Assembly (NCBI GenBank): GCA_016219235.1
Contig: JACRBO010000580.1
Coordinates: 1 to 11,057, forward strand
Origin: Chloroflexota bacterium
GTDB taxonomy: Bacteria; Chloroflexota; Anaerolineae; Fen-1058
Reading direction: 5' to 3'
DNA: 11,057 bases
Shown here in pieces: positions 4,380 through 11,057 of this stretch. The translations under genes and the position numbers were made by a program. The first letter of the stretch is position 1; each line of letters starts with the position of its first letter. A model generated the notes under the pieces. That model saw only the letters and a program-made list of their open reading frames with translations. It was not told the origin of the DNA and ran no database searches.

Positions 4380-4418
4380 AAGTGCTCCGCATTGCTGTGG
4401 CGAAAATTCAGTGGGGAT

Positions 4419-4427
4419 ATTATAGCA
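4419..4427 (-). promoter_or_regulatory. Predicted extended -10 promoter of the kinase gene
   Basis: On the minus strand the sequence reads TGCTATAAT, a consensus -10 hexamer (4424-4419) with the TG of an extended -10 element (TGn). No good -35 is seen at the expected distance, which extended -10 promoters tolerate. Transcription would begin about 30 nt upstream of the kinase ATG at 4379. Confidence 0.55.
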
Positions 4428-4482
4428 TCAAGCCTGTTGGAAAGTGCAGTCGGGCAAAATTGACCCTAATTTGGCGCGGTTC

Positions 4483-4511
4483 TTGCACGAATTGTAGTGG
4501 CAGGTTACAAT
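4483..4511 (+). promoter_or_regulatory. Predicted sigma70 promoter of the antiporter-like operon
   Basis: TTGCAC (4483-4488) and TACAAT (4506-4511) are separated by exactly 17 nt. The start of transcription would be near 4518, about 33 nt before the ATG at 4551. It faces away from the kinase promoter, so the two share an intergenic region of 171 bp. Confidence 0.65.
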
Positions 4512-4550
4512 ACCGCCGCTTGGTAGTCTAAGATTGAATCATCGAGCCTA

Positions 4551-6191
4551 ATGACGCTCCCACCGATTATCCCCCTGGTCCTGCTCATCCTTGGCGCGCT
4601 GGCCGTTGGCGCCAGCGATCTGGCGCGATTGCGACGTCCCAATCTGGTGATGGTCGTAGCCGCGGCCTTGGCCTTGCTGACCGGTTTGCTAGTTCGCGGC
4701 GACGCGCCCGTAACGCAAATCGTGTCGGGCTGGCAGCCTGTGTCGGTCTTCACCGCCCCGATTAGTTTTCGCGTCGATCAAACGGCGTGGATCATGGGCG
4801 TCGGCTTGTTGATCGCGGGTCTGGCAACCGCCCTGGCCTGGCTGGCCTTTCCCGGCGAGAGCCGCCCGGCCCCGCGTGCGCTGTCGCTGTTGTTGATTGC
4901 CGCCGCCGTAGCCGGCGTCTACGCTAGCAATCTGCTCACCCTGACCATGGCCTGGGGCGCGCTGGACCTGATGTTTGTCGTGGCCTTGCTGGTGCGCAGC
5001 GGGCCGCAGGTCGGCCGGCGGGCGGCAGTGGCCATCATCCTCAACACCACTTCGACGATGTGCGTGTGGATTGCCACGCTGTTGATCGAAAACGGGCACG
5101 ATAGTCTGTATTGGCACCTGGTCAATCTGGCAGACGAGCCGCGCCTGTGGCTGGCGGCTGCCGGCGCCCTGCGGCTGGGGTTGTATCCGCTGCATCAGTG
5201 GCTGCCCGTCGATCCCAGCCGGGAAGCCAATCGATCTGCGCTGTTGTATACCGTTCCGACGATGGCCGGTCTGGCTCTGTGGGCGCGGCTGGCGATCACG
5301 CGCAATCTGCCCGAAGTGTCGATTGTGCCCCTGTTTGCCCTGGTCAGTGCCGTAGTAGGCGCGGTGCTGGCCTGGCAAAGCAGCCGATCGCGAGCGGGAT
5401 TGCCCTATGTCGCCCTGGGCCTGAGCGGGTTGGCAATGCTGGATTTGGGCGTATTGGCTACAGGTGGCACGCTGACCGCCGTCGCCCTGAACTGGCTATT
5501 CGTCATGATCAGTTTGTTCATTGCGCGCAGCTTCAGCCGTCGTGCGCCGTGGTGGTCGGCCGGCGGGCTGGTCGCCAGTTTAGCCATCATGGGGTTACCG
5601 GGTACACTGGGTTTTCCAGCGCGGTCCGCCATGATCACCAACCTGATCCACTCTGGCAGCTGGGGGTTGCTGGCTGGTGGCATCCTGAGCGAGGCGCTAC
5701 TAATCGCTGCCGTCATTCGCATGGCGTTCACCCCGCCCCCGGCGGGCGACGATCGACCGATCGGGTTGGTGAGGCAGGTCGCGTGCGGCCTGGCTATCAT
5801 CAGTGCAGCTGCGCCCCTGGTCCTGTTAGCGTTCAACTCAGCGTTGATACCGGGCACACCTCCACTGAATAATCTGCTGAGCAATCTGGAGCCTCTAACC
5901 CTGCTGGCCTGGTTACTGCCAGTCGGCGTAGGCACGGCGCTGGCGTGGCGCGATCTGCGTATGGCGACGCCGCCGACCTCGACCGAGCGTGACGCCATCG
6001 ATAGCGAAGCACCTCTCTGGCTGCGACTCATCCGGCTGGATTGGCTGAATGTCGCCGTTGGGTATGTGGTGCACCGCTCGACAACCCTCTTGCGCGGACT
6101 AGCAAGCGTAATCGAAGGCGAAGGTGGCCTGATCTGGGTCATTGTCATCGTCATCGTCGGCGTGGTCTTGACCAGCGGCGCGTTAAAGTGA
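4551..6191 (+). CDS. NuoL/NuoM-like proton-conducting membrane subunit, divergent
   Basis: A 546-aa, almost wholly hydrophobic protein with roughly 14 TM helices, resembling the antiporter-like subunits of complex I, Mrp antiporters and group 4 hydrogenases (Proton_antipo_M type). The clearest landmark is LYPLHQWLPVD (211-221) followed by SALLYTVPTM (229-238), which matches the PLHxWLP...SALLHAATM signature. The later MGLPGTLGFPARS (347-359) matches the broken TM12 helix. In canonical subunits Lys precedes the PLHxWLP motif and another Lys follows GF in TM12; here Arg208 and Arg358 stand there, and the usual His/Lys of TM8 is Tyr. The TM5 Glu has no clear counterpart (Asp139 is near). A C-terminal lateral-helix-like segment ends in EGEGGLIW (522-529). 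It is first gene of a three-gene operon. The ATG has only a weak ribosome binding site; an upstream in-frame TAG at 4524 limits the start. Confidence 0.8.
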   Translation: MTLPPIIPLVLLILGALAVGASDLARLRRPNLVMVVAAALALLTGLLVRGDAPVTQIVSGWQPVSVFTAPISFRVDQTAWIMGVGLLIAGLATALAWLAFPGESRPAPRALSLLLIAAAVAGVYASNLLTLTMAWGALDLMFVVALLVRSGPQVGRRAAVAIILNTTSTMCVWIATLLIENGHDSLYWHLVNLADEPRLWLAAAGALRLGLYPLHQWLPVDPSREANRSALLYTVPTMAGLALWARLAITRNLPEVSIVPLFALVSAVVGAVLAWQSSRSRAGLPYVALGLSGLAMLDLGVLATGGTLTAVALNWLFVMISLFIARSFSRRAPWWSAGGLVASLAIMGLPGTLGFPARSAMITNLIHSGSWGLLAGGILSEALLIAAVIRMAFTPPPAGDDRPIGLVRQVACGLAIISAAAPLVLLAFNSALIPGTPPLNNLLSNLEPLTLLAWLLPVGVGTALAWRDLRMATPPTSTERDAIDSEAPLWLRLIRLDWLNVAVGYVVHRSTTLLRGLASVIEGEGGLIWVIVIVIVGVVLTSGALK

Positions 6192-6195
6192 AAGT

Positions 6196-6915
6196 ATGGA
6201 CGTTCTAAAGACACTGTCTTCCATTCCGGGCCTGGCCGTGCTTATCGGGCTGATTGTGGCTGCGGCGCTGTTGGTCGTGCTGGTCAACTGGCGGCTGCTG
6301 ATTCTGGCGTTGGGTGTGCAGTATTTGCTGGTGGGCCTGATGCTGACCCGCGTCGTACCACTGGAACTGGCCGCGGTCAAGGCGCTGGTCGGCGTGATGA
6401 TCTGCCCGGTGCTGTTTATCACCGCACGCCGCGTCCGCTGGGGGCAGATCGATCAAGATGAGGCCGAGACCGATCAAGCGCCGAGCGATCCCCTGGCACC
6501 CGATCAACCCGCGCCCAAACCGGCGGCACGCCGGTCACTGTTCGGCTGGCTGATTAGCCCCGGTTTGCCGCTGCGGTTAATGGCCGCACTGTTGACCGCT
6601 GTGCTGGCCGTCAGTCTGGCGCTGCGCAATCCCCTGCCGGTCACGGGCGATGCGCTCGTCTCGCGTGACATCACGATCGGGACGTTTGGCCTGATACTGT
6701 TGGGGTTGTTGAATATCCTGCTGAATGAAAACCCACTAAAAGTGGGCGTAGGCTTGCTGAGTCTGCTGGCCGGTTTCGAGATGTTCTATACCTCGGTCGA
6801 ACCGACTCTCACGATCATCGGATTGCTGGGGATGACCAACTTGATCATCGGGCTGGCGATTTCGTATTTGACCACCGCCTGGGCAACGCATCCGCCGCGC
6901 GAGGCCCAACCATGA
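6196..6915 (+). CDS. NuoK/HyfE-like membrane subunit in two halves
   Basis: A 239-aa protein with two hydrophobic blocks, about three TM helices each (residues 12-77 and 114-228), joined by a polar Pro/Asp/Gln-rich linker (about 84-112). The length and layout resemble HyfE of hydrogenase 4. The C-terminal block (LLNILLNENPLKVGVGLLSLLAGFE, ending in an isoleucine/leucine-rich helix) resembles NuoK/MrpC, where membrane Glu residues are needed for proton transfer. Glu57, Lys62, Lys182 and Glu195 lie in or beside membrane segments and are the residues to examine. It starts 4 nt after the upstream stop, with no strong ribosome binding site, and its TGA overlaps the next ATG, so translation of the set is probably coupled. 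Assignment to HyfE rather than another NuoK relative is by layout and is less certain than membership of this superfamily. Confidence 0.65.
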   Translation: MDVLKTLSSIPGLAVLIGLIVAAALLVVLVNWRLLILALGVQYLLVGLMLTRVVPLELAAVKALVGVMICPVLFITARRVRWGQIDQDEAETDQAPSDPLAPDQPAPKPAARRSLFGWLISPGLPLRLMAALLTAVLAVSLALRNPLPVTGDALVSRDITIGTFGLILLGLLNILLNENPLKVGVGLLSLLAGFEMFYTSVEPTLTIIGLLGMTNLIIGLAISYLTTAWATHPPREAQP

Positions 6916-8315
6916 TCAACAGCGTACTGCCGTTGATCGCGCTGCCGTTGCTGGCGGCGGTGTTGACCTCTGGGCTGCGCCGCTCGGCAACGTTAAGCGC
7001 CCTGCTCGCCGCCGGGCTGCCGCTGGCCGGCGCAGTGCTGGCCCTGACCAATGATTTGAGCAATCCCTTCACGCTGTTGGGGCGCGAGCTGCTGGTGACG
7101 ACCGGCGATCGGTTCGCAATCGCCTATCTGTTCATCTGCGCCGCCGCCACGTTCATGGGTGTGTGGCGCACCTCCCCCAACTGGACGTATTATCCGGTCG
7201 CGTTATTGTCACTGACCGCCGTCGTCATAACCCTGGGCGGTCGCCCGGTCGAAGTAGCCGTCGTCGTCGGCCGCCCATTTGACCCCTTCCACTACTCGGT
7301 CATCTTCCTCACGGTCGCCTGCATGCTGGCGATTTTCCCGCTGCAGGGCGGGCAGCCGGGCGTAGCACGCGGCACCGTGCGCTTTATGGCCCTGATGGTC
7401 ATTGCCTTGCCCGCGTTCTTGACGGCGTCGTGGGTGCTGGATCAGTTTACGCAAAGCCCGGACGCCGTGAATCTGGCGCAAACGGCCAGTGTGCTGATCA
7501 TGATCGGCTTTGCCATCTGGCTGGGCGTGGTGCCCTTTCACGCGTGGCTGCCCGGCATTGCCAGTGAAGCGCCGCCGCTATCCAGCGCGTTCGTGCTGGG
7601 CATCATCAACGTGGCCGTCTGGTTCTTAATGCTGGATATGTTCCACGAGATCAAAGTGCTGTATGATAATCCGGCCTTGCCGGGTGTGCTGCAAATTGCG
7701 GGGATTTTAACCGCCATCGCCGGCGGTGTGCTGGCGCTGGCGCAACGCGACTTTGGCCGTTTGATGGGTTACGCGGTGCTCTCGGACATCGGCGTGGCGT
7801 TGGTGGCCTTTGGCACGGGCACGGCGGCCGGCCTCAGCGCCGCACTCGTCGTCGTGTTCGTACGCACGTTTGGCCTGGGGCTCATGTCGATGGGGCTGGC
7901 CGTCGCGCGTCAACAGGCCCGGCGGCTCGACGACAGTTTTGAATCGCTGACCAGCCTGGCGTGGCGGTCGCCGTGGGCGGCGATGGTGATCATCATCGGC
8001 GGCTTCTCACTGGCCGGTCTGCCGCCCTTTGCCGGTTTCGCCGGACGGTGGGCGGCCTTGCAGCAATTAGCCTATAACGATCTGGCGATATCGGCGGCCT
8101 TGCTGATCAGCACCATCGGCGTGGCCACGGGCACTTTGCGCGGACTGCAGTACGTCTTACAGCATCCTCACTCGGACAGCGCTCAACCCGATCGAATCTC
8201 GCCGCTCACGATCATGTTGCTGATCGGGGCGCTGGTGCTGACTCTGATCGTGGGCCTGTTTCCCGATCTCATCGCGCCGGCCATTCGTCAGATGGTCGCG
8301 GCGTACATGGGGTAA
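6912..8315 (+). CDS. NuoN-like proton-conducting membrane subunit, divergent
   Basis: A 467-aa membrane protein with about 13-14 TM helices. Landmarks of the complex I antiporter-like family are VVPFHAWLPG (206-215), LAQRDFGRLMGYAVLSDIG (276-294, matching the LAQxDxKRLLAYSSIxHxG signature) and FSLAGLPPFAGFAGRW (365-380, the TM12 region). The Lys that normally lies a few residues before PFHxWLP is Trp203, and the TM12 Lys is Arg379. No convincing TM5 Glu is visible. The start ATG overlaps the preceding stop (ATGA at 6912-6915) and has GAGG 7 nt upstream. The TAA stop lies at the edge of a heptamer repeat array. It is the last gene of the operon and converges on the glycosyltransferase. Its role is presumably with the two genes before it in one membrane complex; the transported ion is unknown. 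Confidence 0.82.
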   Translation: MINSVLPLIALPLLAAVLTSGLRRSATLSALLAAGLPLAGAVLALTNDLSNPFTLLGRELLVTTGDRFAIAYLFICAAATFMGVWRTSPNWTYYPVALLSLTAVVITLGGRPVEVAVVVGRPFDPFHYSVIFLTVACMLAIFPLQGGQPGVARGTVRFMALMVIALPAFLTASWVLDQFTQSPDAVNLAQTASVLIMIGFAIWLGVVPFHAWLPGIASEAPPLSSAFVLGIINVAVWFLMLDMFHEIKVLYDNPALPGVLQIAGILTAIAGGVLALAQRDFGRLMGYAVLSDIGVALVAFGTGTAAGLSAALVVVFVRTFGLGLMSMGLAVARQQARRLDDSFESLTSLAWRSPWAAMVIIIGGFSLAGLPPFAGFAGRWAALQQLAYNDLAISAALLISTIGVATGTLRGLQYVLQHPHSDSAQPDRISPLTIMLLIGALVLTLIVGLFPDLIAPAIRQMVAAYMG

Positions 8316-8452
8316 TGCACAATTCACAATGCACAATTCATAGTGCACAATTCATAATTGCCAACCGATGGTGAAGTTCCGACAGTGCAATTGTGCATTG
8401 AGCATTGTGCACTGAGCATTACGCATTATGAACTATGCATTATGAATTGCTC
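8314..8452. repeat. Inverted arrays of a 7-bp repeat between convergent genes
   Basis: The left arm is seven consecutive heptamers (8314-8362): AATGCAC, AATTCAC, AATGCAC, AATTCAT, AGTGCAC, AATTCAT, AATTGCC. The right arm is nine (8390-8452), in the opposite sense: ATTGTGC, ATTGAGC, ATTGTGC, ACTGAGC, ATTACGC, ATTATGA, ACTATGC, ATTATGA, ATTGCTC. A 27-bp spacer separates them. The arms can pair as a long imperfect hairpin and so could act as a two-way terminator. The array completes the stop codon of the NuoN-like gene and encodes the last residues and stop of the glycosyltransferase. It resembles the short heptanucleotide tandem repeats seen between genes in several bacterial phyla. Confidence 0.85.
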
Positions 8453-9640
8453 TAGTTTTGGCACGATGTAACGCCAGTCGTACTTCTCCGCAAACGATCG
8501 ACCCACGACGCCCAGCGCCCGCCCCTGCTCCGGCCCGCGAATCAATTCCACCGTCGCTCGCGCAAACGCGGCGGCGTCATCCGCCAGTAATAATTCCCGG
8601 CCGGAAACAACTTCAAAACCCTCCGCGCCCAGCGTCGTGCTGACACATGGCGCGTGCAAGGCCAGTGCTTCCAACAACTTGAAGCGTGTGCCGCCGCCCA
8701 TCCGCAGCGGAACTACGTACACACTTGCGCCGGTGATGTAAGGGCGCGTGTCCTCAACGCCGCCTGTGATCACAATCGAGTCGTCGGAACGCAGTTCGGC
8801 CAATCGAGCGTGCGGTCGCTGCCCCACGATCACGAACTGGGCATCGGGCACCTCGCGCTTGATCAGCGGCAGCACCTCACGCGCAAACCACAGCACCGCA
8901 TCGACGTTGGGGCGAAAATCCATCGTGCCCGTAAAGACGAGCGAATGCGGCGGCAGATCGATCGGCGCGACTTGCGATCGATCGTACAAGGCCGTGTCGA
9001 TGCCGTTGGGGACAACGTGAACGCGCAAAGCCGGATCGAGTTCGCGCAAGGCGGCGGCGTCAGCGTCAGAGACCGCCACCACCCGATCGGCCTGTCGCGT
9101 GATGCGGCGCTCGAAGCGGCGCAGTTTACGAGCTTGAAGCGTGGAGTAGATCGCACCGGGTGTCCAGCCGCGCGCGGCGCGTTCGGTCTGCGCGATGCGC
9201 GCCTGCAGCAGATACTCGGCGTTGTGATCGTCGAAGATCAGCTGACTCCCTCGCCGGGAGAGGGCCGGGGTGAGGGCCAGGCCATACCGCGCCAGCTCAA
9301 TGCCTTCGATCTCAATCGCGTCATAATTGCCGTCGCTCAACCAGGCTTGAAGTTGGGCCAGAAATTGCGGCGCCCACAGCCTGAGGCCCATGTCCGGCCA
9401 CGGCGAGATCAGCGTATCGATGGCCCGGCGCAGATTCGATCGCGCGGGCACAGTCACGACGGCGATGCGGCGGCACAGGCGATCGAGCGGCGTGCCGCGC
9501 GGCGTCTGCGGCGAATCGTGCACGCTAAGCAGATCGATCTCGTGACGCGCCGCCAGACCTGCGATAAGGTTGTAGTTGCGCAGCGTGGTACCTTTGTGCG
9601 GCGGATAAGGGAATTGAGGGGTGAGAAAGAGTAGGCGCAT
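8426..9640 (-). CDS. GT-B fold glycosyltransferase (GT4-like)
   Basis: A 404-aa cytoplasmic or membrane-associated transferase, expected to move a sugar from a nucleotide-sugar to an acceptor in surface polysaccharide or glycolipid synthesis. The N-terminal Rossmann domain opens with FLTPQFPYPPHKGTTLRNYN (5-24), the glycine loop pattern of this family, and includes FDDHNAEY (136-143). The C-terminal domain has VVPNGID (209-215), FTGTMDFRPN (236-245), and GGGTRFKLLEALA (315-327), the nucleotide-sugar binding and E-rich motif. It resembles the group of sugar transferases found with exopolysaccharide systems, but no such partners are nearby. Residues about 121-133 come from an inserted palindromic repeat, and the last eight residues from the heptamer array. 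The ATG at 9640 is the first start fitting the family N-terminus. Substrate is not predictable. Confidence 0.9.
   Translation of the reverse strand: MRLLFLTPQFPYPPHKGTTLRNYNLIAGLAARHEIDLLSVHDSPQTPRGTPLDRLCRRIAVVTVPARSNLRRAIDTLISPWPDMGLRLWAPQFLAQLQAWLSDGNYDAIEIEGIELARYGLALTPALSRRGSQLIFDDHNAEYLLQARIAQTERAARGWTPGAIYSTLQARKLRRFERRITRQADRVVAVSDADAAALRELDPALRVHVVPNGIDTALYDRSQVAPIDLPPHSLVFTGTMDFRPNVDAVLWFAREVLPLIKREVPDAQFVIVGQRPHARLAELRSDDSIVITGGVEDTRPYITGASVYVVPLRMGGGTRFKLLEALALHAPCVSTTLGAEGFEVVSGRELLLADDAAAFARATVELIRGPEQGRALGVVGRSFAEKYDWRYIVPKLEQFIMHSS
9242..9280 (-). repeat. In-frame palindromic repeat inside the glycosyltransferase gene
   Basis: In the coding sense this stretch reads CCCTCACCCCGGCCCTCTCC and continues to GGCGAGGGAGT, with CCCTC/GAGGG arms. 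It is translated as LTPALSRRG (residues 123-131). The same DNA motif and its LTPALS translation are a well-known widespread intergenic repeat in bacteria. Here it sits between ELARYG and LIFDDHNAEY, where relatives have a short loop, so it looks like an insertion that kept the frame. Confidence 0.7.
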
Positions 9641-10679: not shown

Positions 10680-11057
10680 CTATTCAAAATCCTCGCTAAC
10701 CAATGCCCGGATTGGATGTTCATCGACAGCACTTTGGTGCGCCATGATGAAATTCTCGCACCCATCAAACCAGGCCAGCACGGCCCCGCGTTGTAGGCGG
10801 GTGGCCTGAGCGGACAGGTGCGCGTGATAGGATGAATAAGGCCAGTTGCGAAAATCCGTCACGAAGCCATGCTTTTGGGGATTCTGATGGATGTACGTGA
10901 CCAATCGACTAAAGTGTGCATCGCTGGCCACCAGTATCCGACCGAATGGCCGTTGAAACAGTGCGCCCGTACGTTGATACACTTTGTTGAACGCCTTGGC
11001 GTAGGCATTGAAGAAATTGGCGAAAGCCTGGTTGGGAGTGCGCTGCAAACCTGACAG
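10680..11057 (-). CDS. RAYT/IS200-like (Y1) transposase, C-terminal part
   Basis: Open through the right edge: 125 sense codons plus TAG stop. Y1 transposases are single-strand DNA nucleases of the HuH type, using one Tyr as nucleophile. The visible part matches the C-terminal half of REP-associated members: FFNAYAKAFNKVYQRTGALF, then QRPFGRILVASDAHFSRLV, then YIHQNPQKHGFVTDF and NWPYSSYHA. The Tyr of YIHQNP is at the position of the catalytic residue. The HuH metal-binding half should lie beyond 11057. A TTG at 11048 could be used as a start, but would give a protein lacking HuH, so the gene is more likely longer or broken. The last 11 bases resemble the palindrome at 10625-10635, so the gene may be truncated there. 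REP-type palindromes at both ends would fit a mobile or formerly mobile unit. Confidence 0.82.
   Translation of the reverse strand: MSGLQRTPNQAFANFFNAYAKAFNKVYQRTGALFQRPFGRILVASDAHFSRLVTYIHQNPQKHGFVTDFRNWPYSSYHAHLSAQATRLQRGAVLAWFDGCENFIMAHQSAVDEHPIRALVSEDFE
11047..11057. repeat. Possible start of a second copy of the RAYT palindrome
   Basis: AAACCTGACAG at the window's last 11 bases matches AGACCTGACAG (10625-10635) at 10 of 11 positions, in the same orientation. The rest of the palindrome would be outside the window, so this is tentative. Confidence 0.35.

Follow-up and report, generated by a model that had tools for sequence, protein, structure and literature searches.

A three-gene antiporter-like membrane module without an adjacent redox arm in Anaerolineae-type Chloroflexota

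We analyzed an 11,057-nucleotide stretch of DNA from a Chloroflexota bacterium (assembly GCA_016219235.1, contig JACRBO010000580.1; hereafter the window), and found a three-gene module encoding two antiporter-like subunits, ant1 and ant2, with a third membrane protein, mid, between them. We put at roughly 0.5 the probability that this module is a Hyf/Ehr-type membrane arm, related to group 4 hydrogenases within the complex I superfamily, which has been retained without a redox arm in Anaerolineae-type Chloroflexota. Judging from sequence, the most likely role of the module is redox-free ion conduction. This role is favored because the module persists across the phylum, because one genome (G253) carries it with no other detectable complex I-type part, and because charged residues are kept at transport positions.

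A three-gene membrane operon

The open reading frames and their spacing were present as the original prediction had described. A 4-nucleotide gap separates ant1 from mid, mid and ant2 overlap by 4 nucleotides, and the operon end is convergent because the next gene is a minus-strand glycosyltransferase gene (Table 1). Chance reading frames are ruled out because large homologous families keep the gene order. The claim that the operon holds no redox, Mrp or DabA-type gene was also upheld: apart from the module, nothing resembling nuo, hyf, Mrp or DabA was detected by BLAST of the open stretches of at least 50 amino acids in the window against E. coli and plasmid references (E 1e-4), or by a Pfam scan of eight reading frames.

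The Proton_antipo_M domain and the antiporter fold of the PF00361 superfamily are present in the module. ant2 matches PF00361 with 90 bits and is shown, in its modeled form, to retain the antiporter fold. ant1 has no Pfam match and three weak NCBIfam matches, of which the antiporter subunit D models are best and NuoN is another; ant1 and ant2 both have weak to moderate NCBIfam matches to Mrp subunit D models, far under the cut-offs. For mid, no match was found in Pfam or NCBIfam. It had been described as NuoK/HyfE-like, and half of this description stands. The C-terminal half of mid (residues ~137-237) is weakly NuoK/MrpC-like, and no similarity to HyfE was detected (hhalign probability 0.1 and 1.2%, against 94% for HyfE and NuoK in the same set-up); the gene position is the one likeness to HyfE that was observed.

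Distribution and gene neighborhoods

A mid profile matched in 212 of the 396 genomes of the class to which relatives of the window belong (that of genome G003), in single copy in all but 9, and a broader profile matched in 114 of 400 phylum genomes, once in each; the class and phylum samples overlap. Where the organism was given, close relatives of mid and ant1 from protein searches belong to Thermoflexales, Anaerolineae or Chloroflexi; these searches reach only sequences that share short words and say little on other phyla.

To the window and loci L001-L005 we added 55 regions chosen from the 212 class matches by rank and contig size. Since L122 duplicates L003, these 61 regions represent 60 distinct class loci. 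mid and ant2 are adjacent in all of them (60/60), and ant1 lies upstream of mid-ant2 in 41/60 (profile score at least 100 bits). The open stretches of at least 50 amino acids in the 60 loci were compared by BLAST (E 1e-4) with the nuo- and hyf-encoded proteins of E. coli, with Mrp proteins taken from a small number of plasmid records, and with two DabA sequences. Genes of any of these systems adjoin the module at a single locus, L003, where nuoB, nuoCD and nuoI lie divergently upstream. With these few references, no Mrp A-G or DabA-like stretch was found beside the module in 60/60 loci, nor any Hyf A, C, G, H or I-like stretch. Hydrogenase large and small subunit genes are absent from the window and from the 60 loci, except for the nuo genes in L003. 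The flanking genes vary by lineage, and include those for a phosphoenolpyruvate-utilizing enzyme, an MgsA-type ATPase, HMG-CoA reductase, NusG, a UDP-sugar dehydrogenase, a glycogen debranching enzyme, NusA and MOSC, among others.

The genomes of L001-L005 contain 10 to 19 PF00361 matches each. Of these, 29 longer proteins, pooled over the five genomes, were classified and match NuoL, NuoM, NuoN, MrpA, MrpD and Hyf references, and the module is therefore additional to these proteins.

Relatives with a HyfG-like subunit

Beyond the class, 40 phylum loci were picked in two batches from the 114 matches. The first batch contains genomes that we take to be Chloroflexia-type (Roseiflexus, Herpetosiphon, Chloroflexus aggregans). 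A gene similar to E. coli HyfG was found within the module locus in 17/40 phylum loci, all of them from the first batch of 20 and none from the second; a representative protein matches PF00346 with 134 bits. By our own gene calls, the order HyfG-ant1-mid-ant2 is uninterrupted in 14 of these 17 loci. Both CxxC motifs are present in 10 of the 17 HyfG-like proteins (L172-L183, L185-L189) and one has been lost in the other 7, a variation suggestive of a hydrogenase site in the course of being lost. HyfI-like stretches, corresponding to the small subunit, occur in 3/40 phylum loci (L172, L180, L181), and PF01058 was confirmed for those of L172 and L181.

Two further proteins were observed at the phylum loci. 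A membrane protein of ~272 amino acids follows the module in 11 of them (L172 6389-7207 and relatives); it has no assigned family and no NuoH profile match. In L192 (7228-9009) and L193-L195, a protein of ~590 amino acids without a Pfam match occupies the ant1 position, and those of L192 and L193 cluster with ant1-type proteins in a tree. In Chloroflexus aurantiacus, two complex I gene clusters have been described (PMC3150298); the main text of that paper never uses the term 'antiporter'.

Phylogeny of the antiporter-like subunits

In a 118-sequence tree, the ant1 and the ant2 representatives each form a clade of their own, with support of 0.99 and 1.0. Both fall outside the NuoL/M/N, MrpA/D and HyfB/D/F references, and also outside the Nuo/Mrp/Hyf-type proteins of the L001-L005 genomes. 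With two DabB sequences and relatives from the phylum, Chloroflexia-type ones among them, included (121 sequences), the ant2-type split was supported at 0.998 and the ant1-type split at 0.935, DabB stood separately, and ant1 and ant2 were joined at 0.523 only. Root and polarity are not fixed in these trees, and the reference set is without Mbh, Mbx, Fpo and Ech.

Gene neighborhood and phylogeny had been proposed as checks on the original prediction of an independent ion-translocating module. With nuo, hyf, Mrp or DabA-like genes adjoining in 1/60 class loci, and with ant1 and ant2 placed apart from those Nuo, Mrp, Hyf and DabB clades that the trees included, both checks agree with it: the module is set apart in 59/60 class loci and has its own clades. 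Its independence is qualified by the HyfG-like gene in the 17 phylum loci and by the nuo genes upstream in L003. Ion translocation itself is what the fold and homology would predict, with the canonical carrier residues remodeled.

Key residues of the charge path

We aligned 22 references and 29 canonical proteins of the module genomes (51 in total) with 41 ant1 and 60 ant2 sequences, using E. coli NuoM numbering and comparing functionally important positions. At the position of E144 in transmembrane helix 5 (TM5), Glu is present in 51/51 canonical proteins, and ant1 has Asp in 33/41 and Glu in 3/41. At K234 in TM7, Lys is found in 48/51 canonical proteins and Arg in 36/41 ant1 sequences. The TM11 position H348 is His or Tyr in 49/51 canonical proteins and Arg in 57/60 ant2 sequences, and the TM12 position is Lys or Glu in 51/51 canonical proteins and Arg in 47/60 ant2 and 20/41 ant1 sequences. 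D139 and R208 of ant1 are invariant in 29 ant1 relatives. The pair of TM5 Glu and TM7 Lys that the PF00361 superfamily would show in each antiporter-like subunit is not kept in ant1 or ant2 of the class loci, with the TM5 register of ant1 uncertain. The importance of NuoM E144 has been reported (PMC3046159).

Redox partners elsewhere in the genomes

Among the 40 chosen module genomes, no PF00346 (NuoD/HyfG-type) match was found in six: G253, G007, G362, G320, G334 and G040. In G253, whose main contig has 2,945,494 bases, the sole PF00361 match is the ant2 of the module (202 bits against the ant2 profile), and neither PF00346 nor the HyfG-like profile detected a NuoD/HyfG-type protein. Over the 40 genomes, the HyfG-like profile gave 443-532 bits in the four Chloroflexia-type genomes included; apart from ten genomes with intermediate scores, discussed below, the remainder gave lower, NuoD-range matches, with only 25 bits in G007 and none in G253. 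DabA (PF10070) was absent in 15 of the 17 module genomes searched and present in two, both Chloroflexia-type, where it lies far from the module.

Comparison with known systems

The module shares the order antiporter, membrane protein of ~220-240 amino acids and antiporter with hyfD-hyfE-hyfF of E. coli Hydrogenase 4 / FHL-2, and its Chloroflexia-type relatives have a HyfG-like neighbor. It differs from Hyf in that class loci are without adjacent Hyf A/C/G/H/I, ant1 and ant2 fall outside HyfB/D/F, and mid is not detectably HyfE. Compared with group 4 [NiFe] hydrogenases, a large subunit accompanies the module in 17/40 phylum loci, a small subunit in 3/40, and neither in the window. Ehr complexes, which lack the Ni/Fe ligands (PMC6349859), combine antiporter-like subunits with a HyfG/NuoD-like subunit, as the Chloroflexia-type loci do. 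However, both CxxC motifs persist in 10/17 of the HyfG-like proteins, and the Anaerolineae-type module, including that of the window, has no adjacent redox subunit. In contrast to NuoL/M/N/K of complex I, the Glu/Lys residues of the module are remodeled, and the operon is without NuoH, A, J or the hydrophilic arm.

Redox-free use of the same folds is known from Mrp cation/proton antiporters and from the DabAB / DAB2 CO2-uptake complex, in which the PF00361 subunit DabB has an altered ion pair and serves another process (PMC13144422). The module is distinguished from Mrp by class loci without adjacent Mrp A-G and by the separation of ant1 and ant2 from the MrpA/MrpD references; it is distinguished from DabAB by a locus without a DabA-like stretch, the lack of DabA in 15/17 genomes and the separate branching of DabB. 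Isolated antiporter modules of complex I, made in the laboratory, conduct protons in proteoliposomes (PMC11496545).

Proposed mechanism and alternative explanations

We propose that ant1-mid-ant2, or mid-ant2 where ant1 is missing, would form a single complex in the membrane through which ions flow down the proton-motive force, with no redox reaction involved. In place of the usual Glu/Lys relay it would use a remodeled series of charges (Asp/Arg in ant1, Arg/Arg in ant2), and it might serve for proton/cation antiport, as a regulated leak or for coupling to some other process. The redox arm would have been lost in Anaerolineae-type lineages and kept in varied states in Chloroflexia, rather than gained there. 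A more specific version is tentative and, on sequence evidence, rather doubtful: that the module is a phylum-wide redox-free channel or antiporter from a stripped hydrogenase-type complex, with Lys proton relays replaced by Arg charge sites split between the N-half of ant1 and the C-half of ant2, and with mid-ant2 as the minimal form.

Several observations weigh against the retained-arm interpretation, and they are considered here together with the alternatives. That mid corresponds to HyfE is not established, and it resembles NuoK only weakly. The Asp/Arg and Arg/Arg path is no constant of the family: in 12 Chloroflexia-type loci the ant2-type protein has Arg at TM7 (12/12), and the ant1-type protein has the TM7 Lys in only 1/11 (L181, also aligned with a TM5 Glu). 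Since the residue pattern differs between branches, it counts against a fixed design of two complementary halves. A second alignment does not place the ant1 TM5 Asp level with the Glu, which leaves their correspondence in doubt by roughly one helical turn. In ant2, the TM7 Lys is lost in 60/60 sequences and replaced by Leu, Trp, Met, Tyr or Ile, and the TM5 Glu is kept in 28/60, with Thr in the window; from these residues, ant2 could support no proton transport at all. ant1 was not found at 19/60 class loci, and those genomes were not searched for it elsewhere. These ant2 losses and missing ant1 genes would fit a non-transporting relic or scaffold, its fold kept for a structural, lipid or sensor role and its ion path dead. 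We consider such a relic improbable: Arg is conserved in ant2 at TM11 and TM12, the Asp/Arg residues of ant1 are kept in 33/41 and 36/41 sequences, the genes are retained across a phylum, and DabB offers a precedent for an altered ion pair.

The module could also serve as a substitute or additional membrane arm, joining in trans with complex I or with another Hyf-like redox arm whose genes lie elsewhere. PF00346 proteins are present in 34/40 module genomes, the HyfG-like profile gives 245-305 bits in 10 other genomes of the 40, matches that we interpret as Hyf-type large subunits encoded away from the module, and nuo genes lie upstream in L003. Partners in trans are conceivable because of these NuoD-type proteins and intermediate matches. 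The absences are weak evidence, as the genomes come without completeness values and many are fragmented; in G253 itself, mid and ant1 are weak matches of ~30 bits each. Still, docking in trans appears unlikely to us: G253 has no PF00346 or other PF00361 protein, five more genomes are without PF00346 (with the same caveat on completeness), and the nuo neighborhood is confined to 1/60 class loci. Moreover, complex I need not borrow module subunits because the pooled L001-L005 genomes hold their own NuoL/M/N-matching PF00361 proteins. That the module is itself a known redox-free system, Mrp or DabAB, is very improbable. Such systems occur in the same superfamily and the Mrp subunit D matches point in this direction, but the neighborhoods, searched with few references, the distribution of DabA and the trees, with MrpA, MrpD and DabB apart from ant1 and ant2, all argue against it. 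The retained membrane arm thus stays our preferred interpretation, at the probability given above.

Features of the window

The divergent gene left of the module encodes a sensor kinase of 1097 amino acids, and an H+-pyrophosphatase fragment of 195 amino acids (PF03030) lies at the left window edge; to the right lie the convergent glycosyltransferase gene and a LysE-type exporter gene. Both left-hand genes, of which the kinase had been suggested to control the module and the pyrophosphatase to be linked to it, are real, but neither link is general. A strong kinase homologue was found only in L005, and in L004 as a partial one at a contig edge, with weaker generic kinase matches in 11 other class loci. 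The pyrophosphatase, with the 195-residue fragment as query, matched in 1/60 class loci (the window itself) and 4/40 phylum loci. The module had also been credited with its own promoter, for which a simple consensus scan gave no support: no sigma-70-like plus-strand site was found in 4380-4551, which is weak evidence. The inverted repeat behind ant2 extends into the terminal part of the glycosyltransferase gene and is, from its sequence, a possible two-way terminator.

Two side observations concern the surroundings. Phylum loci L192, L193, L194 and L195 have, close to the module, divergent upstream genes for an H+-pyrophosphatase and a sigma-54 factor. In the window, an edge reading frame (10680-11057, minus strand) appears transposase-like by eye, without a significant Pfam match.

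Table 1. Coordinates of the module and adjacent features in the window
Feature	Position	Strand	Description
ant1, antiporter-like subunit, first	4551-6191	+	546-amino-acid reading frame; Asp139 (TM5 region), Arg208 (TM7 Lys position)
mid, membrane protein	6196-6915	+	239 amino acids; seven long helices; C-terminal half weakly NuoK/MrpC-like
ant2, antiporter-like subunit, second	6912-8315	+	467 amino acids; antiporter fold; Trp203 (TM7 Lys position), Arg318 (TM11), Arg379 (TM12)
Glycosyltransferase	8426-9640	-	Convergent, next gene after ant2
Intergenic region, divergent kinase / ant1	4380-4550	.	Expected promoter location for the module
Array of 7/14-nucleotide repeats forming an imperfect 46-nucleotide inverted repeat	8313-8442	.	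Spans the convergent ant2/glycosyltransferase ends

Implications

If our interpretation is true, the module would be a natural counterpart of the laboratory-isolated antiporter modules (PMC11496545), a membrane arm that many species have kept separate from a redox arm, with the key lysines replaced. The series from Chloroflexia-type HyfG-bearing operons to two-gene modules would then offer a comparison of which charged residues ion movement needs, and the same series may inform how complex I-type complexes gain or lose parts.

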